Shown here: piece by piece, positions 19,295-28,829 of the stretch | How the letters are laid out: each line of letters opens with the position of its first letter | How positions within the stretch are numbered: the first letter of the stretch is position 1 | From: Nitrospira sp. | GTDB lineage: Bacteria; Nitrospirota; Nitrospiria; Nitrospirales; Nitrospiraceae | Length of the DNA stretch: 40,265 nucleotides | NCBI GenBank assembly: GCA_030692565.1 | Contig: JAUYAO010000019.1 | Span: forward strand, 1-40,265 | Reading direction: 5' to 3' | The notes under the pieces: model-generated | What the model was told of the DNA's origin: nothing | The model's database searches: none | Seen by the model: the letters and a program-made list of their open reading frames with translations, nothing else | Made by a program: the position numbers and the translations under genes

Positions 19295-19321
19295 TTAACA
19301 CACGGTTAACATGCCTGTAAT
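19295..19321 (+). promoter_or_regulatory. Pho-box-like site upstream of plus-strand pstS
   Basis: TTAAC (19295), TTAAC (19306) and GTAAT (19317) repeat at exactly 11-bp spacing. They lie about 90-115 bp before the pstS start. This is the best-spaced three-unit site in the divergent region. Confidence 0.65.
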
Positions 19322-21391: not shown

Positions 21392-22301
21392 GTCCACCGC
21401 CCTGCAACGGCGCATCATGCGGCGCAAGGGCCTCGATCGCTTCTTTGCCTTCGAAGGACTCCTCGTGATGGGCGTCGCCCTGCTCGTCTTGTTCGCCCTG
21501 GTGGGGCAACTCGCGGCCGATGGGGCCGGCCGGTTGTCCTGGCAATTTCTTACGTCCTTCCCGTCCCGGTTTCCGGCGCAAGCCGGCATTCTGACCGCCT
21601 GGATCGGCACCCTCTTGGTCATGCTGCTGACGGCGCTGACGGCCGTTCCCTTGGGGATCGGAGCCGCCATTTATCTGGAAGAATATGCCGCGAAAAGCCG
21701 GTTGACCGAGGTGATTGAAATCAACATCGCCAATCTGGCCGGCGTGCCGTCGATCGTCTACGGGCTCATGGCCCTCGGGCTGCTGGTCTATGAGCTGCAC
21801 CTGGGGCAAAGCTTTCTGACTGCCGGGCTGACCCTGGGCATGTTGATTCTTCCGATGGTCATCATTGCGACTCGCGAGGCGATTCGGGCCGTGCCCCCTG
21901 CCGTGCGCGAAGCGGCTTATGCGCTCGGCGCCACCAAGTGGCAGACCGTCCGGGATCATGTCCTGCCCTATTCGATGGGCGGCATTCTGACAGGGATGAT
22001 TCTGGCGCTTTCGCGGGCCGTCGGCGAGACGGCCCCGCTGATTACCGTCGGGGCCCTGTCGTTCATCGCCTTTCTCCCCCACCCGCCATGGCAGGGAGAG
22101 TTTCCGTTTGTCTCGTTCGAGTGGCTGTTCGATCCCTTCACCGTGATGCCGATTCAAATGTTCAATTGGGTGTCCCGACCGCAAGAGGAGTTTCACGTCA
22201 ATGCGGCGGCGGCCGGTCTGATCTTGCTGGCCATGAGTCTGGCGATGAATGCGGTGGCGATCGTCATTCGGGCGCGGTTCAGAAAACGGATCCACTGGTG
22301 A
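21357..22301 (+). CDS. pstA: Phosphate ABC transporter permease PstA
   Basis: The second permease, 314 residues from ATG 21357, with six membrane helices. It has [20 protein letters not shown], the conserved [17 protein letters not shown] and the EAA loop [21 protein letters not shown]. The start is not certain: ATG 21417 gives a 294-residue protein beginning [10 protein letters not shown] with no overlap with pstC. The N-terminal extra part ([10 protein letters not shown]) is basic and plausible as a cytoplasmic leader. Neither start has a strong binding site. Confidence 0.93.
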
Positions 22302-22305
22302 TGCC

Positions 22306-23091
22306 ATGAAAGCCTTGGATGTATCGCAAACGGTCCTCAAAGCGGAGTCGCAGGGGCTCAATTTCTTTTACGGCCGGGCGCAGGCGCTCCATGGCCTGTC
22401 CCTCCCGGTCTATGACCGCTGTGTGACGGCGCTGATCGGTCCCTCCGGCTGCGGGAAAACCACCTATTTGCGCTGTTTCAACCGCATGCACGACTTGTAT
22501 CCAGGAAATCGCTACGAAGGGGCTGTCATTCTGTATCCGGACCGGGTCAATATCGTGGGGCCTGAGGTCGATCCGATCGAGGTGCGGATGCGCATCGGGA
22601 TGGTGTTTCAAAAGCCCAACCCCTTCCCCAAGTCCATCTATGAAAATGTGGCGTACGGGATGCGGATCAGAGGGGTGTCATCGAAAGCCGATCTGGATAT
22701 GGTGGTCGAGCGGGCGCTGCAAGAAGCGGCCTTATGGGGAGAAGTCAAAGACCGGCTCCAGGCATCCGCGATGAATCTCTCAGGCGGGCAACAGCAGCGT
22801 TTGTGTATTGCCCGGGCTCTGGCGACCAGTCCGGAACTCCTCTTATTCGATGAGCCGACCTCGGCGCTGGATCCGACCGCGACGTCACGTATCGAAGAAC
22901 TCGTGACGGAACTGAAGCAGAAGGTTGCGATCGTTATCGTGACGCACAATATGCAGCAGGCGGCGCGAGTTTCGGACCACACGGCCTTCATGTACGAGGG
23001 GCGGTTGGTGGAGTTCGATCGTACGGAGAAGATGTTTACTAATCCATCCGTCAAACTGACGGAAGACTATGTCACCGGTCGTTTCGGGTGA
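22306..23091 (+). CDS. pstB: Phosphate ABC transporter ATPase PstB
   Basis: The 261-residue ATPase of the transporter. Walker A is [18 protein letters not shown]-loop is [16 protein letters not shown], signature is [15 protein letters not shown], Walker B is [13 protein letters not shown] and the switch His lies in VTHNMQQA. The order and the FNRMHDLYP stretch are specific for PstB. ATG 22306, four bases after the pstA stop codon, is chosen; the open frame extends upstream without family similarity. With PhoU it also takes part in repression of the Pho response when phosphate is plentiful. Confidence 0.96.
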
Positions 23092-23109
23092 TGGGCAGGA
23101 GCAGGCAGC

Positions 23110-23799
23110 ATGCAACGACATATCGATCAGGAACTCGGTGACTTGAAAGACCGTTTGCTCCAAATGGGGGCGTTGGTCGAAGAGCAGATCGAGCGCGCGA
23201 TTACGGCCATGATCGAACGCGATGCCGTGCTGGCTGGGCAGGTCATCGAGCGCGACACGCTGGTCAATCGCTACGATGTGGAGATCGACGAAGCCTGCAT
23301 CCGTCTGTTGGCCTTGCAGGCGCCCGCGGCAAAAGACCTGCGGTTTGTCACGACGGCGATGAAGATTTCCACAGAACTCGAACGCATGAGCGATCTCGCC
23401 GAAAATATCTGCGAGCGGGTCATCGAGTTGAATGAAGAACCGCAGCTGAAGCCCTATATCGATCTGCCGCGCATGGCCGCCTGGACCATGAAGATGGTGC
23501 ATGAAGCGCTGGATGCCTTTGTCCGGCAGGATGCGGCCCTGGCTCGAAAAGTCTGTGCCGACGATGACTTCGTCGATAATCTGACCCATCAACTCTTTCG
23601 TGAACTCGTCTCATTCATGATCGAAAACCCCTCCACCATTACGCGGGCTATTCGACTCACCTTTATCGGCAAATACATCGAACGGATCGCGGATCACGCC
23701 ACCAATATCGGCGAATTGGTCATCTATATGGTGGAAGGCAAGATCGTGCGACACATGACCCCTCCTGCTGTCCAGCCGAACACGTCCCTGAATAGCTAG
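23110..23799 (+). CDS. phoU: Phosphate signalling protein PhoU
   Basis: A 229-residue cytoplasmic protein made of two PhoU three-helix domains (about 5-110 and 115-215). The metal-binding-type segments are ERDTLVNRYDVEIDEACIRLL and RLTFIGKYIERIADHATNI. PhoU couples the transporter to the PhoR sensor. It closes the pst operon, 18 bp after pstB. No phoB or phoR gene is present in the window. A large hairpin element follows and may end the transcript. Confidence 0.95.
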   Translation: MQRHIDQELGDLKDRLLQMGALVEEQIERAITAMIERDAVLAGQVIERDTLVNRYDVEIDEACIRLLALQAPAAKDLRFVTTAMKISTELERMSDLAENICERVIELNEEPQLKPYIDLPRMAAWTMKMVHEALDAFVRQDAALARKVCADDDFVDNLTHQLFRELVSFMIENPSTITRAIRLTFIGKYIERIADHATNIGELVIYMVEGKIVRHMTPPAVQPNTSLNS

Positions 23800-23881
23800 C
23801 TCGGATCGCGCTTCATGGTTTCCCGTGGGTAATGGAATGGTCTTGCGCCCACGGCTTGACGCCATCTATGCCCTCCCCTTG

Positions 23882-24022
23882 CCTCCCCTTGCCCCTCCTT
23901 GGTAAGGAGGGGCAAGGGGAGGTCGAATCTTTGAGCGCCCACTCGGCCTCGCACGACAGACACGAGGGCATGACAGCCTGCGAAGACTCGACCCCACCTC
24001 CCCTCCCCTTACGAAGGGGAGG
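23882..24022. repeat. Composite double-hairpin element, copy 2 (after phoU)
   Basis: Hairpin 1 is a perfect 19-bp stem, CCTCCCCTTGCCCCTCCTT with loop GGT, at 23882-23922. Hairpin 2 is CCTCCCCTT-ACG-AAGGGGAGG (24002-24022). The interior begins GGTCGAATCTT and ends AAGACTCGACC, which match as inverse at 10 of 11 bases. The size and layout are those of the element at 10662-10790. It lies between the converging phoU and small winged-helix genes, a good place for a bidirectional terminator. The 23800-24211 gap holds no other gene. Confidence 0.8.
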
Positions 24023-24211
24023 CATCGAAAAAGGGTGGCGCCACACGACAGGCGAAGTCCCAGGTATTTGCCTCACTCGATTTCCGGAAGCGGTGAATGG
24101 ATAGAGGATGCTGTATCTTACTCGCAGGGAAGAGAGGGGGCATCCTTTCCCCGTGATAAGTATTGTGGAGGAAAACGCAGGAGAAACGAAGAGGCGGTAT
24201 AGCTCTGCCCG

Positions 24212-24460
24212 CTAGGCGGCGTAGTGCGCGGAGAAGAGCGTGTACTCGGAGCGGTGCCGGCGCAAGGTAATTCCCCCACTGCGGGCCAAGCGGTCGACGA
24301 CGTGGAAGATCTGGCTCCAGCTATACTCGGGCAGAAGAATGACGAGCGCATCCAACCCGATCACGGCTTGTTCTTCGAGATGCCCGAGAATGACGGATTC
24401 AAGCGATTCGCTCCCTATCCGGCTGGGGGCTGGTGTGTCGAGAAGTGCCTGAGCAGACAT
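24212..24460 (-). CDS. Small winged-helix-like protein
   Basis: An 82-residue protein with AGGAGG before its ATG. The helices LESVILGHLEEQ, DALVILLPEYSWSQIFHVVDRLARSG and the terminal strand pair ITLRRHRSEYTLF make a plausible winged helix-turn-helix with the wing at the end. I cannot name a family. It is the last gene of the minus-strand psiE operon, 10 bp after psiE, so it may be a regulator of that operon. The DNA-binding role is inferred from the fold pattern only. Confidence 0.6.
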   Translation of the reverse strand: MSAQALLDTPAPSRIGSESLESVILGHLEEQAVIGLDALVILLPEYSWSQIFHVVDRLARSGGITLRRHRSEYTLFSAHYAA

Positions 24461-24469
24461 ACAATCCTC

Positions 24470-24991
24470 CTAGAGTGTGGATGAGAAGATCGGGCCCATG
24501 GTTGGCGATGGTGCGGAATGAGCCGGTTGCGCCGGACTGAACCGGACGGCCAATACCCGGATGAGTCCGAGTGTGAGGAGAATCACCGCCAGGATGGCGA
24601 GCTTCTGCCAGTCTCCGCCGGTGAACCATTGGGAAATCACTTCCGTCAACATGACGACCAGGACGGTATCGACGATAAAGGTGACGCGCACGCGGCCGTC
24701 TGAAAAATAGGCCAGCGTCGTCTTCAGGACTTCCACCACCGCCAGCAGCATGAGTGTGTTGACGATGAGGTGACGCAGACCCTGATCGATGTCGGCGGTC
24801 AAGAGGAGCCGCAGGCCGATAAAGGTCTTGATGACTCCGCCCGCCAGTCCGACCAGGATGGTGACAATGAGGAGGCTCAGGACTGCCTGCGTCCCTTTTT
24901 CCCAGAGCAGGGTCAGATCCGGCGACGCGAAGAGCTGCCAGAGCCGGGGCAGACGCAGACGGGTTTCAGCCGATGCCAGGCTGCCGATCAT
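24470..24991 (-). CDS. PsiE-domain membrane protein
   Basis: A 173-residue inner-membrane protein with four predicted helices (about 34-57, 72-96, 104-124, 131-150). It fits the phosphate-starvation-inducible PsiE family: LLIVTILVGLAGGVIKTFIGL, then a DIDQGLRHLIVNTLMLLAVVE segment and HRV-type VRVTFIVDTVLVVMLTEVI. ATG 24991 has AAGGAG upstream and overlaps the stop of the small upstream gene (ATGA). The function of PsiE is unknown; in enterics it is induced by low phosphate. The Pho-box-like site upstream of this operon agrees. Confidence 0.8.
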   Translation of the reverse strand: MIGSLASAETRLRLPRLWQLFASPDLTLLWEKGTQAVLSLLIVTILVGLAGGVIKTFIGLRLLLTADIDQGLRHLIVNTLMLLAVVEVLKTTLAYFSDGRVRVTFIVDTVLVVMLTEVISQWFTGGDWQKLAILAVILLTLGLIRVLAVRFSPAQPAHSAPSPTMGPIFSSTL

Positions 24992-25119
24992 AGACTCTCC
25001 TTTCCAAAAAAGAGGAACGCCAGATCGCGCCAAAGCGATTGCAGAAACAGGAACAGCCCCAGGACCACCAGGCCCTGGAAGCCGACGAGCAAGGCCTCAC
25101 CGATGACTTGCGATAACAT
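24988..25119 (-). CDS. Small membrane protein (43 residues)
   Basis: A short gene from ATG 25119: MLSQVIGEALLVGFQGLVVL, then a second hydrophobic part and a basic end. It has one long or two short membrane segments (about 9-30). GGAG lies upstream, and the stop overlaps psiE by four bases (ATGA). The much longer frame to 25296 is not believable, since it runs antisense across the CBS gene. A membrane partner of PsiE is a reasonable guess. It is small enough to be missed by automatic annotation. Confidence 0.55.
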   Translation of the reverse strand: MLSQVIGEALLVGFQGLVVLGLFLFLQSLWRDLAFLFFGKESL

Positions 25120-25153
25120 CAATGTGTTCTCCGGTTCATAGTGTCTGTCTTCT

Positions 25154-25537
25154 CTAAAATTCGTCGATGGAGACCGGGTGAAGGAGATCCCGGACGGAAA
25201 GCGTGCCGACGATTGCGCCGCTCTTGAATACCGCCAGATGGCGCGTGCCATGGAGTTCCATGAGGTCGGCGGCTTCCGTAATGGGCCGCTGTTCATCGAT
25301 CCCGACGATGGGGCTGCTCATGATCTCTTCGACCGGAATGTAGTAGGGCACGCGGTCTGCTCCGACCACCTTCCGGACGATGTCCGGCTCCGTGACGATC
25401 CCGATGAACTGGTTGTTCTTCTTGACGAAGACGCTGCCGATCTTGTGCCGCGTCATCAATTTGGCGGCATCGATCGCCGAGGTGCCCGCTTCGATGTGGA
25501 CGACACGAGGGGTCATAATGTGACTGACTGTGACCAT
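25154..25537 (-). CDS. CBS-domain pair protein
   Basis: A 127-residue protein formed of two CBS motifs (about 7-60 and 70-125). The first has VSHIMTPRVVHIEAGTSAID and FIGIVTEPDIVRKVV, and the second has IMSSPIVGIDEQRPITEAA and VGTLSVRDLL. Such stand-alone Bateman modules bind adenine nucleotides and act as energy or ligand sensors. AAAGGAGG precedes the ATG. It sits in the operon with PsiE and small membrane proteins, so it might gate that membrane complex by nucleotide state. The partner is inference. Confidence 0.92.
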   Translation of the reverse strand: MVTVSHIMTPRVVHIEAGTSAIDAAKLMTRHKIGSVFVKKNNQFIGIVTEPDIVRKVVGADRVPYYIPVEEIMSSPIVGIDEQRPITEAADLMELHGTRHLAVFKSGAIVGTLSVRDLLHPVSIDEF

Positions 25538-25740
25538 AGAAACCTCCTTTGAACGGGTGGTTGCGAGAGCGATGGAATCGCCCGGTTGATGAGATGGGAG
25601 ACGCCGGCCGCATCGCGTGTGCGAAGCAACGGGACACAGGTCTTTCCCCGGAGCCCGAGCAGGGTTTGGCCGGCATAGGCGAGAGGCACCGCGAGGCTGA
25701 GGGAGAGTAATCCGATGAAGAGCCCGATTTCCTGCGTCAT
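25513..25740 (-). CDS. Small membrane protein, first gene of the psiE operon
   Basis: A 75-residue protein with one N-terminal hydrophobic helix (about 5-28, IGLFIGLLSLSLAVPLAYAG) and a basic, low-complexity tail. The tail overlaps the CBS start by 25 bp. No family is recognised. It is the first frame after the Pho-box-like site, with a modest AGG binding site. The AYAG could also be a signal peptide end. The tail may be unstructured. Expression is likely from position, but weakly supported by sequence. Confidence 0.5.
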   Translation of the reverse strand: MTQEIGLFIGLLSLSLAVPLAYAGQTLLGLRGKTCVPLLRTRDAAGVSHLINRAIPSLSQPPVQRRFLWSQSVTL

Positions 25741-25825
25741 GGTTCGCCTTTCCTGGAGCCTCTGAGACCGGCTCCTTGTATGGGCAAACTGTACCGCCCG
25801 GTTATTCCAGGGGGATCACCGATGG

Positions 25826-25842
25826 GTTAACTCTTGGTTAAC
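25826..25842 (-). promoter_or_regulatory. Pho-box-like site upstream of the psiE operon
   Basis: GTTAAC occurs twice with exactly 11-bp spacing (25826-25831 and 25837-25842), matching the sites before both pstS genes and the porin. It is about 85 bp before the first gene of the minus-strand operon. GTTAAC is palindromic, so the strand is assigned from the gene order. Confidence 0.55.
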
Positions 25843-25944
25843 TCGCAGGATGAGAGTCGTTTTGCAGGAATCGTGGCACCGGAGACAGCGCTCTCCGCGG
25901 AAGGGTCGGCCGGTCGAGCGTATGAGCACGCGTGAAACGAGGGG

Positions 25945-26181
25945 CTATTCGCTTTCCACGATGCGCCAGCCCTCCCGCTGCAGGCAGCGCTCGGTGGCGT
26001 TGAGGATCAGCAACTGGCTCCCCTGCTGAAGCTTCGGATCGCGGAGTACGAGATTCTGACAGCGGTTATATTCGTTCGTAAATTCCGAGGACGGTTTATT
26101 GGGGTGGACCCAATTGCTGCCTCCGCAACCGGCGAGGAGCCCTGAGAGGAGGAGCGATGCGACGATGAGGCGATTGGTCAT
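25945..26181 (-). CDS. Small lipoprotein of unknown function
   Basis: A 78-residue protein with a clear lipoprotein signal (MTNRLIVASLLLSGLLAGCGG; lipobox LAGC with Cys19). The mature part is only 60 residues, with two cysteines (RCQNLVL and ERCLQREGW) that might form a disulfide. GGGAGG precedes the ATG. No family is recognised. It faces the gap with the Pho-box-like site that precedes the psiE operon, and it reads in the same direction. Confidence 0.7.
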   Translation of the reverse strand: MTNRLIVASLLLSGLLAGCGGSNWVHPNKPSSEFTNEYNRCQNLVLRDPKLQQGSQLLILNATERCLQREGWRIVESE

Positions 26182-26267
26182 GCAAAACCTCCCAGTGGCA
26201 GACGGATGATGCCGGAAGATAGAGCCTCCGAGGGGGTGGCGTCAAGAGCAGGCGTGAGAGTCGACGG

Positions 26268-26364
26268 GTCTGTCTGGTCTATTTAGTCTGTCTGGTCTGT
26301 TCGGTCTGTCTGGTCTATTCGGTCCATCCAGTTCGACCAGACAGACGAGATAGACCAGACCGAC
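26268..26364. repeat. 18-bp tandem repeat with inverted copy
   Basis: Three 18-bp units of the form GTCTGTCTGGTCTATTTA follow each other (26268-26285, 26286-26303, 26304-26321) with one or two changes. A complementary tract of the same type (26334-26364) lies just after them. The region could fold into a long imperfect hairpin behind the end of the receiver-HATPase gene. A single related tract (GTCTGTCGGGTCTGTCTCG) lies before cheW at 35122-35147. Confidence 0.75.
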
Positions 26365-26377
26365 CTCCTTCAGGTTG

Positions 26378-27277
26378 TCAGTCGATAGGGATCTGCACCG
26401 TCACTTCATTTCCGCGATCGTTGTAACAAAGATTGGGAAAGAACGAACGAGCCAGGAAGATCCCCCGTCCGCTGGCATCTTCGGCGTTGCAGGGTGTCGT
26501 GGCCCGATGCAGCAAGGTTTTCCATTGAAACCCTTTCCCCTGATCGGCAATCCGATATTCCAGATGTCCGGCCTGACGGTCGCAATGCACATGGATCGTG
26601 ACGGTGCGTTGGGCCAGGCGCGGTTGAGCCAGACGTTCCTGCACGAGTTGGCTCAGCCGATTCTGATCGATGGCCTGTTGCTTGACCTGGTAGGAAATCT
26701 CCAGATTGCCGTGCTCGACGGCGTTGAGCAGCAACTCTTGCAGCGTGCCTCGGAGATGGAGCTGTGTGGTATCGGACAAGGCCCCGGCCGTGGCTCTGAT
26801 CAGCCAGGACACAATGCCGGGGATATGCCGCGGGTCTGAATCGACGGTCAGGGCGTAGTCGGAGCGCACAAGGCCTGGTGTATCCGCCATATCGGCCGGA
26901 AGCAGATAGCGCGCGCGTTGCAGCGCATGCGCCAGCTCTTCCACGCCGATCGGCTTCTGCAGAAAATCCACGGCTCCGGCGCGCAGCGCATGGATGACCG
27001 CCTGCTCGGATTGATGCGCGGCCATCACGATGACCGGGCACGGGACATGTCGCGCTCGAAGCGTTTTGGTCAGGGTCAGGCCGGCGCCTTCCGGGAGGAA
27101 CGAATCGGTCAACACGATATCCGGGGCCGTGAGCTCGATGGTCGCGAGCGCCGTGCTCGGGTCGGACGCCGTGATCACGGAAAACCCCCGATCTTGCATA
27201 TGGCCCAGGATCTGCGCTTGCGTCTCCCGGCAGGGATCGACCACCAGGACAGTGCAGGACGGGACGGGAGTCGTCAT
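26378..27277 (-). CDS. Receiver-HATPase fusion (RsbW-like kinase)
   Basis: A 299-residue protein. An N-terminal receiver domain (about 1-115) carries the phospho-Asp in IVLTDSFLPEGAG and the Lys in FLQKPIG. A GHKL ATPase (about 155-299) has N box LQELLLNAVEHGNLE, G1 IADQGKGF and G2 GRGIFLARSF. The ATPase resembles RsbW/SpoIIAB-type kinases that phosphorylate STAS proteins. The receiver's second acidic residue is replaced (VVDPC instead of VVDDx), which may weaken Mg binding. The start at 27277 overlaps the HPt stop (ATGA). It likely phosphorylates one of the two STAS proteins encoded upstream. Confidence 0.85.
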   Translation of the reverse strand: MTTPVPSCTVLVVDPCRETQAQILGHMQDRGFSVITASDPSTALATIELTAPDIVLTDSFLPEGAGLTLTKTLRARHVPCPVIVMAAHQSEQAVIHALRAGAVDFLQKPIGVEELAHALQRARYLLPADMADTPGLVRSDYALTVDSDPRHIPGIVSWLIRATAGALSDTTQLHLRGTLQELLLNAVEHGNLEISYQVKQQAIDQNRLSQLVQERLAQPRLAQRTVTIHVHCDRQAGHLEYRIADQGKGFQWKTLLHRATTPCNAEDASGRGIFLARSFFPNLCYNDRGNEVTVQIPID

Positions 27278-27633
27278 GATGCAGATCCGTTTGCGACGTA
27301 TGCGCGCAGCGCCGCAATGAGTTGTTGGAGTTCCCGATCGACTTGGGCGCACACCGTCGCGGCGCGGTCCAAGGTGCCGGCTTTCCCGAGGGCTTCCAGC
27401 TCTTTGGTCGCCTCGAACACACGGGGAGCGGAAAATTGCAAAATGGCGCCTTTCATCCGGTGCGCGGCGCGAGCCAAGGCCTCGGCATCCCCGGCATCGA
27501 GCGCGGCCTGTGTAGCAGCCATATCTATGGGTGCCTGCTCGACGAACAATTCAGCCAGTGTGTGAAACAGGTCTTCGTCCTCATCGACCCGCGTGAGCGC
27601 TTCGGCAAGATTAAACACGACGTCGGCGCTCAT
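27274..27633 (-). CDS. HPt domain protein
   Basis: A 119-residue histidine phosphotransfer protein. The phospho-acceptor His58 lies in ARAAHRMKGAILQF, the standard HPt motif, within a four-helix bundle. It has no catalytic domain. It overlaps the gene before (ATGA at 27630-27633) and the gene after (ATGA at 27274-27277), so it is made in strict stoichiometry with the two receiver proteins. It probably shuttles phosphate between a kinase, such as CheA or an outside hybrid kinase, and these receivers. Confidence 0.9.
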   Translation of the reverse strand: MSADVVFNLAEALTRVDEDEDLFHTLAELFVEQAPIDMAATQAALDAGDAEALARAAHRMKGAILQFSAPRVFEATKELEALGKAGTLDRAATVCAQVDRELQQLIAALRAYVANGSAS

Positions 27634-28829
27634 AGCCGGAACTCCAATCCCAGCAACGCGGCATCGTCGGGAAAGACCGGAGACCCATGCCAGCGTTCGG
27701 CTTCCGCCATGAGCGCCGGCAGCGCCTCCCCGAGTGGTGCGGACCGATGTGCCATAAGAGTGGTCTCCAAACGCGTGGTTCCCCAGAGTTCTCCCGTAGG
27801 CGCAGGCGCTTCGTAGATCCCGTCGCTCATCAGAATCACGCGATCTCCATCCGCAATCTGGACGGTCGTGAGCTCGTAGGCGCTGTCCGGTTCAAATCCC
27901 AGGGGAAGGTGGGCGTGGGTCAGCCATTCGATGCTGCCGTCCCGCCGTTGCATGAGCGCGCCGCCATGACCGGCCGTCGCGTAGCGCAGCTGATGGGTGG
28001 TTCGATCGAAGGATCCGATCCAGATCGTAAAGTAGCTGCCGTCTTCGGTCAGGGGATACCGTCGATTGGCTTCAACCAGCATCGCCGCTGGATCGTTCTG
28101 CCTGATGCAATGCCGGAGATTTTCGGCTCTCAGGAACGTGGCGAAGGAGGCGGCGCGCAACGCGGGAGATACGCCGTGACCGGAGGCATCCAGGATGTAA
28201 AAGTAGGCCGACTGATCGTCCCATGTGGAAAAGTTAAAGAGGTCTCCTCCCAAGGCCAGCGAGGGGCGATAGATCCAGGACATGCGGATACCGGGCGTGG
28301 CGTTGCCGGCTGCCGGAAGCAGGGAGTGGATGTAGTCTGCGGCTGACCGGAGTTCGCGCTCCAGCTCGTCCTGCTTGGCGCGCAGCTCATCACGCGCGCT
28401 TTCAATGCTGCGGACCAGCGAGGCGGCGCGGAGACTGGACTGCACGCGGGCCAGGATCTCCTGCTTACTGGCGGCTTTGCTGAGGAAGTCGTCGGCCCCC
28501 CGCGCCAAACCCTCGGCGATTTGTTCCGGTTGGTCGTGGGAGGTCATGAGGATGAGTTGACTGGACAGAATGTCGGGGTCTTGCCGGACCTGCTCGCAGA
28601 CCGTGGGTCCATCCATTCCCGGCATGACCCAGTCCAGGATCGTCAGATCCGGACGCTCACGCCGAAGAATGGCGAGCCCCTCCTTTCCATTGCCGGCTTC
28701 GAGGACGCGAAGTCCCATCCGCTTCAGGCGTGCGGCCATACTCAAACGGCTGACCGGCTCGTCATCCACCAGGAGCACGGTGGCGACAGCCGGAGACACA
28801 GCGGGTTTCGAAAGGGTATCAGGATTCAT
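27630..28829 (-). CDS. Receiver-PP2C (SpoIIE-type) phosphatase
   Basis: A 399-residue response regulator. The receiver (about 15-135) has LLVDDEPVS, phospho-Asp in LTILDWVMPGMDG and a Lys in LSKAAS. A helical coiled linker follows (about 140-165, ARDELRAKQDELEREL). The PP2C-type phosphatase (about 185-399) has metal-binding acidic motifs GGDLFNF, ILDASGHGVSPAL, MSDGIYEA and FPDDAALLGLEF, all intact. Such RsbU-like enzymes dephosphorylate phospho-STAS proteins when activated. Next to STAS and HATPase genes it completes a partner switch. It overlaps the HPt gene. Confidence 0.92.
   Translation of the reverse strand: MNPDTLSKPAVSPAVATVLLVDDEPVSRLSMAARLKRMGLRVLEAGNGKEGLAILRRERPDLTILDWVMPGMDGPTVCEQVRQDPDILSSQLILMTSHDQPEQIAEGLARGADDFLSKAASKQEILARVQSSLRAASLVRSIESARDELRAKQDELERELRSAADYIHSLLPAAGNATPGIRMSWIYRPSLALGGDLFNFSTWDDQSAYFYILDASGHGVSPALRAASFATFLRAENLRHCIRQNDPAAMLVEANRRYPLTEDGSYFTIWIGSFDRTTHQLRYATAGHGGALMQRRDGSIEWLTHAHLPLGFEPDSAYELTTVQIADGDRVILMSDGIYEAPAPTGELWGTTRLETTLMAHRSAPLGEALPALMAEAERWHGSPVFPDDAALLGLEFRL

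Follow-up and report, generated by a model that had tools for sequence, protein, structure and literature searches.

PsiE takes its name from phosphate starvation in Escherichia coli, and we know of no function established for the PsiE family. Members of Nitrospira are major nitrite oxidisers in soils and water treatment. The closest described counterpart of the locus reported here is E. coli psiE, which likewise encodes a PsiE-family membrane protein and has historically been placed in the Pho regulon. In the available excerpt of PMC4415409, the PHO box is described as two 11-nt direct repeats, and E. coli psiE is given as a PhoB/CRP target. By contrast, ChIP-seq and expression data from E. 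coli, as excerpted from PMC10294691, revealed neither PhoB binding 5′ of psiE nor PhoB-dependent regulation, and psiE is considered there an unlikely target. Furthermore, the proteins expressed from the E. coli locus of heat resistance include PsiE (PMC7010813, excerpt), and an island protein with less than 30% identity to PsiE is reported for the tLST (PMC8290217, excerpt). The psiE gene of a 4.17 Mb Nitrospira genome differs from that of E. coli in having a clear Pho-type promoter and in being linked to genes for a CBS-domain protein and the small proteins P75 and P82. Searches of the open-licence literature found nothing on Nitrospira together with PsiE, nor on "PsiE family" together with "CBS domain". 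Among the matches listed, no title concerned Pho control in Nitrospira and none on globin-coupled sensors concerned a PsiE fusion, and the only match for Nitrospira, PhoB and "Pho box" concerns arsenite.

The locus lies in a 40,265-nt stretch of DNA, hereafter the window, which is contig C19 of this genome. P75, CBS, P43, psiE, and P82 follow one another in this order on its minus strand, between 25740 and 24212. The reading preferred here, put forward tentatively as somewhat short of an even chance, is that they form a Pho-regulon unit P75-CBS-(P43)-psiE-P82, in which a CBS-controlled PsiE membrane effector would tune phosphate or polyphosphate handling and P82 would be a second-tier regulator. 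The five tightly packed open reading frames (ORFs), the PsiE and CBS identities, and the ATGA overlap between psiE and the 43-residue gene announced in the preliminary description were all recovered: PsiE (24470..24991; 173 aa) matches PF06146 at 36.7 bits against a cut-off of 23.9, the CBS gene (25154..25537; 127 aa) encodes two CBS stretches (Pfam CBS, E 4.5e-24), and P43 (24988..25119) overlaps psiE at 24991-24988. P75 (25513..25740), the first gene of the unit, shares 25 nt with the CBS ORF, and the psiE stop codon lies inside the Shine-Dalgarno sequence of P82 (TAGGAGG); translation of P82 (24212..24460) is probably coupled to psiE. P75, P43, and P82 had no match in Pfam or NCBIfam at E values up to 1, which places P82 in no named family of either collection. 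The unit is convergent with a plus-strand pstS2-pstC-pstA-pstB-phoU operon, of which the final gene, phoU (23110..23799), was named by Pfam (PF01895, E 6.1e-47) and the others by eye and by a PstB match. A small predicted lipoprotein gene on the minus strand, P78 (25945..26181), is located 5′ of the promoter box, outside the predicted transcript. A perfect inverted repeat with 19-bp arms is present at 23882-23922 between the convergent phoU and P82 genes and may be a two-way terminator or a dispersed repeat. On the other side of the unit, repeated GGTCTGTCTGGTCTATT-like units occupy 26266-26370, directly beyond the end of a response-regulator ORF (27352-26378). Rfam yielded nothing above gathering scores in the window from 22000 to 28000.

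Of 59 related genomes, the own genome counted, 28 encode a PsiE relative, and the closest relatives in named records, among the matches listed, belong to Nitrospira MAGs. A species-level genome collection contained 119 places with a PsiE relative; the best 80 of the 119 together with the window make up the 81 loci to which counts out of 81 refer, with flanks of up to 4 kb on each side and shorter in some. P82 follows psiE within 1.5 kb on the 3′ side in 65 of the 81 loci. With automatically chosen start codons, 48 of these 65 have a gap of at most 22 nt between the two genes or overlap by 4 nt, 14 have one of 148-178 nt, and in three it is wider. Among the 16 loci lacking P82, L132 ends 74 nt past psiE and L082, read as its duplicate L035, has unread bases there; in 13 of the other 14, CBS is located 421-448 nt 5′ of psiE. 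Among the 59 related genomes, all seven psiE loci of one family (f3) likewise have no adjoining P82, and all have CBS before psiE. P78 is a conserved neighbour, present within 1.5 kb of psiE in 15/81 loci. The unit occurs in three unlike settings, namely beside pst-phoU, beside pstS and porin-like genes, and beside Ppx, SixA-like, and CYTH-CHAD genes, the last confirmed by Pfam matches to CHAD with CYTH, His_Phos_1, and Ppx-GppA. Neighbours are of the Pst type in 46/81 loci and of the polyphosphate type (Ppx, CYTH-CHAD, SixA) in 26/81; six loci have both and 15 have neither.

PhoB-dependent Pho-box promoters carry two or more 11-nt direct repeats with a -10 element at a fixed distance, and the promoter of the psiE unit has the same layout. 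A direct repeat TTAAC-N6-TTAAC with an 11-bp period is present on the minus strand at 25841-25826, with degenerate further units behind it, and the predicted -10 element TACAGT (25793-25788) begins 32 nt past the second repeat; the Pho-box-like site of the preliminary description is confirmed. Scanning the window with at most one mismatch gave seven matches where 0.40 would be expected; they lie at five places, two of which match on both strands, and none of 100 shuffles reached seven. Seventy-six of the 81 loci offered at least 600 bp of upstream sequence, and TTWAC-N6-TTWAC occurs within 1200 bp 5′ of psiE in 44 of them. TTWAC pairs at spacings of 2-5 and 7-11 were found in 0/76 loci, five control words at any spacing in 0-3/76, and the box itself in an equal downstream stretch in 1/76. 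The exact box is missing from 32/76 loci, some of which have a degenerate copy; 13 of the 32 are P82-less loci, and some others resemble N. defluvii and do have P82. With no limit on locus length, there are 46 boxes, which fall into 11 flank clusters, and 31 of the 46 are situated 89-134 nt before the match start (rather than the exact start codon) of P75, CBS, or psiE, whichever comes next. Of 27 dereplicated psiE loci, 19 have a TANNNT element at +32, against a background of 0.0070 per position, and no other offset reaches three loci. The window unit thus has tandem 11-bp direct repeats and a -10 distance equal to that of the genome's own pst promoters, and the plain reading of the sequence is that its promoter is of the same type as those of the phosphate genes. 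Pho-type control of the psiE unit is predicted with high confidence, and the suggested Pho link holds through both the promoter layout and the pst and polyphosphate neighbours; the gene cluster and this link are considered sound.

In the whole genome, the strict form TTAAC-N6-TTAAC occurs nine times at seven places, against two occurrences of the reversed word. The relaxed form TTWAC-N6-TTWAC occurs 13 times against ten for the reversed control and was not used for listing a regulon because it hardly exceeds that control; only the strict form and the -10 register separate from the control genome-wide. The strict places are located between the two pstS genes (pstS1/pstS2), at the psiE unit, at ppk1 (identified by Pfam), at a pstS paralogue (49%), at two exopolysaccharide-type genes, and at an arsR/acr3-like place, the last three being named by eye. 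The promoter before pstS2 (repeat at 19295..19310, plus strand) has TATCCT at +32, and the same offset of TANNNT is found at the psiE unit, the pstS paralogue, and a divergent PhoB-like regulator gene, with +33 at ppk1. Elsewhere, both exopolysaccharide places have an offset of +43 and the ars place one of +21, so that most offsets differ in steps of 11, and among other relaxed sites TANNNT is at +31 for C19:5703 and absent for C19:18841 and C58:618286. The two exopolysaccharide-type places (L066 and L067, C57, about 120-123 kb) are therefore one 11-bp step beyond the phosphate genes in this register. On the same contig, the pstS paralogue and the divergent PhoB-type regulator gene share one locus (L064, about 103.1-106.1 kb) with a CBS paralogue, and each of the first two has a Pho-type promoter directed towards it. 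This regulator has a Trans_reg_C match and scores 137.4 bits against the PhoB model (cut-off 296.2), and its receiver half has no Pfam receiver match. On C59, the best PhoB-like protein (246.8 bits; cut-off 296.2) is encoded beside the best PhoR-like protein (317 bits; cut-off 334.2), both below the NCBI cut-offs. The system differs from the described PhoB-dependent Pho box in that its repeat word is TTAAC/TTTAC, not CTGTCAT, and that binding of a regulator is a prediction here.

Substitution patterns in a close clade (four to six sequences per gene, window included) support the coding of the five ORFs. In most close pairs, changes fall mainly at third codon positions in P75, P82, PsiE, and CBS. 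The dN/dS ratio is 0.07-0.13 for PsiE, 0.05-0.15 for CBS, 0.13-0.57 and mostly near 0.2 for P82, and 0.05-0.13 for the neighbouring P78. For P75, from which the part shared with CBS was excluded, it is 0.08-0.38, and for P43 it is 0.12-0.52. These ranges omit the nearest pair (the window and G030), whose values of 1.13 (P75) and 0.79 (P43) reflect too few changes to judge either. P43 is a hydrophobic protein of 43 aa and is lineage-private. The preliminary description, which raised the possibility of a nucleotide-sensing membrane complex, would be contradicted if relatives with psiE and CBS lacked the small genes, and on this point the outcome is split. P82 follows psiE in most loci and P75-like ORFs precede CBS in 17 of the 35 CBS-linked loci, but P43 is present in 5/81 loci, and close relatives in which the remainder of the unit is retained do not have it (L072, G025, and G022). 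The core of the system therefore cannot be a complex of PsiE with P43, and a fixed nucleotide-sensing complex that includes P43 is not supported. Independently of the rival readings of the unit, it is conceivable and somewhat doubtful that P43 itself is a spurious or decaying ORF: its rarity, its absence from G025 and G022, dN/dS of 0.43-0.52 in three pairs with G033, and the value of the nearest pair fit decay, whereas dN/dS of 0.12 and 0.18 when G026 is paired with the window and with G030, and the ATGA coupling to psiE, speak for a maintained gene.

The CBS protein is a soluble protein of the Bateman type with two CBS domains, as in other tandem-CBS proteins, and its closest solved sequences are the hypothetical proteins 2ef7 and 2yzi; it differs from those described in having a PsiE membrane protein as its probable partner. 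Residues G46/T49/D52 and G111/S114/D117 are invariant in 21/21 aligned sequences, paralogues away from psiE included, such that both domains contain the ribose-type T/S-x-x-D motif, which we take to be a sign of nucleotide binding. Judged from these motifs, the CBS protein is probably an adenine-nucleotide sensor, in agreement with the earlier proposal, and confidence in CBS sensing is moderate. CBS is encoded within 700 bp 5′ of psiE in 35/81 loci, and in 17 of these 35 a P75-like ORF, defined as a small ORF with one hydrophobic stretch that ends at the CBS start, precedes it; similarity alone gives P75 in 10/81 loci. P75 itself (75 aa) has one hydrophobic N-terminal stretch, predicted to be a single transmembrane helix. 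A motif A-x-TL-x-M/L ... P-L/I/V-L/I-R, composed after the P75-like proteins had been viewed, is present in all 17 P75-like ORFs and at none of 363 control gene starts; some hydrophobic ORF occurs at 63/363 of the latter.

PsiE is a membrane protein with four predicted helices, and residues E87, K90, R100, D108, and E117 are invariant in 23/23 aligned sequences. Its structural model consists of four long helices at low confidence (pLDDT 66.9). A fold assignment was dropped in view of this model and a best Foldseek PDB match at E 1.3, and for the same reasons the term "effector" is a guess. Of 100 genomes sampled across the phylum, counting the own one, 78 have a PsiE-family match, often in a frame of close to 300 aa, and all four long PsiE proteins tested, from other Nitrospirota, are Protoglobin-PsiE fusions. 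In these, the PsiE membrane domain is downstream of a cytosolic sensor domain as a single chain, the globin taking by fusion the place that a separate CBS protein has in the window; for the window PsiE, the only Pfam match above cut-off is PsiE, with no protoglobin domain. At L179, a two-CBS gene follows the fusion gene. The fusions, including that of L179, are the main reason for supposing that a cytosolic sensor drives PsiE. At four places (L176, L177, L178, and L189), two of which are among the confirmed fusions, a long PsiE gene is located between purH- and purD-like genes, as judged by eye. The own genome has a second PsiE-family gene (L181 4425-4952, C58; PF06146, E 4.5e-10), which served as a control; the 9.5 kb read there contain neither a box nor CBS nor P82.

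The linkage data also bear on a simpler reading, according to which the genes are only loosely related and merely share a Pho-regulon operon, PsiE acting in general membrane protection, as in the proteobacterial stress island, and the CBS protein serving unrelated targets. In 46/81 loci, some of them short, the 700 bp 5′ of psiE contain no CBS gene, and a fixed co-encoded CBS-PsiE pair is therefore not universal; at L064, moreover, the CBS paralogue, 61% identical to the window CBS, stands beside a pstS paralogue with no psiE, and PsiE is expressed from the E. coli locus of heat resistance (PMC7010813, excerpt). This reading is nevertheless judged unlikely, against the location of CBS directly 5′ of psiE in two families of the order and the fusion of a sensor domain to PsiE elsewhere.

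P82 (82 aa) had been described as winged-helix-like, and structure prediction agrees: the AlphaFold model has a core pLDDT above 90 and an H-E-H-H-E-E topology, Foldseek returns 2mh2 as its best match (E 4e-3), followed by MecI, BlaI, MarR, and CadC among the matches, and VIA-align gives mostly winged helices with Z of 9.6-11.0 (50 entries, among the matches listed). Since winged-helix matches dominate, the predicted fold is fixed and the family is not. MarR/BlaI/ArsR-type regulators share this fold, whereas P82 comprises only 82 aa with no further domain. A P82 profile identified relatives in 40 of 59 related genomes (E up to 1e-3), six matches being in the own genome and some in a second family of the order (f2); at E up to 1e-6, 52 of 198 genomes of the phylum, own included, have matches, 45 in the own family and seven in one other. 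Some of the P82-like small genes of the own genome (L153-L156) adjoin response-regulator-like genes and one adjoins an Hsp20-like gene, as judged by eye; one of them (L154:10451-10780) has no Pfam match. Seven loci examined have P82 and no intact psiE, not counting L164, which was left out as it has only a broken P82 frame. The box is kept in L157, L158, L160, L161, and L162 and not in L159 and L163, and psiE remnants are present in L157, L161, and L162. P82 thus outlives psiE in several genomes and cannot be regarded simply as a component of a PsiE complex. That P82 is the main product, a second-tier Pho transcription factor to which psiE and CBS are losable accessories, is improbable. The boxes and remnants at these psiE-less loci and the multi-copy state of the family, with some members beside response-regulator-like genes, would accord with it, whereas purifying selection is stronger on psiE than on P82, and in another family of the order CBS-psiE usually occurs with no P82.

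Under the preferred reading of a CBS-controlled PsiE unit, low phosphate would lead a PhoB-type regulator to bind the tandem 11-bp repeats and to activate transcription from about 40 nt 5′ of P75. PsiE would act as a membrane effector with four helices, under the control of a cytosolic sensor; the two-CBS protein may bind and read the adenine-nucleotide state, the one-helix P75 may be the adaptor through which CBS contacts PsiE, and the fused protoglobin would be the sensor replacement in other Nitrospirota. The module would thereby tune phosphate or polyphosphate handling with energy state, and P82, translated from the psiE end, would act on its target as a winged-helix transcription factor, forming a second regulatory layer. 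Confidence in the function proposed for PsiE is low. A broader version, in which PsiE is a general membrane output module for exchangeable cytosolic sensors and P82 is the founder of a minimal winged-helix family, expanded in the Nitrospira family with one member as a second-tier Pho regulator, is speculative and less probable than the reading for the unit itself.

These findings provide a lineage with strong and repeated promoter evidence for Pho control of psiE, unlike E. coli. The Pho-promoter signature, with its repeat word and -10 register, is usable for Nitrospira. Furthermore, the linked partner genes suggest what may control PsiE, and they open a family of long-unknown function to concrete tests.
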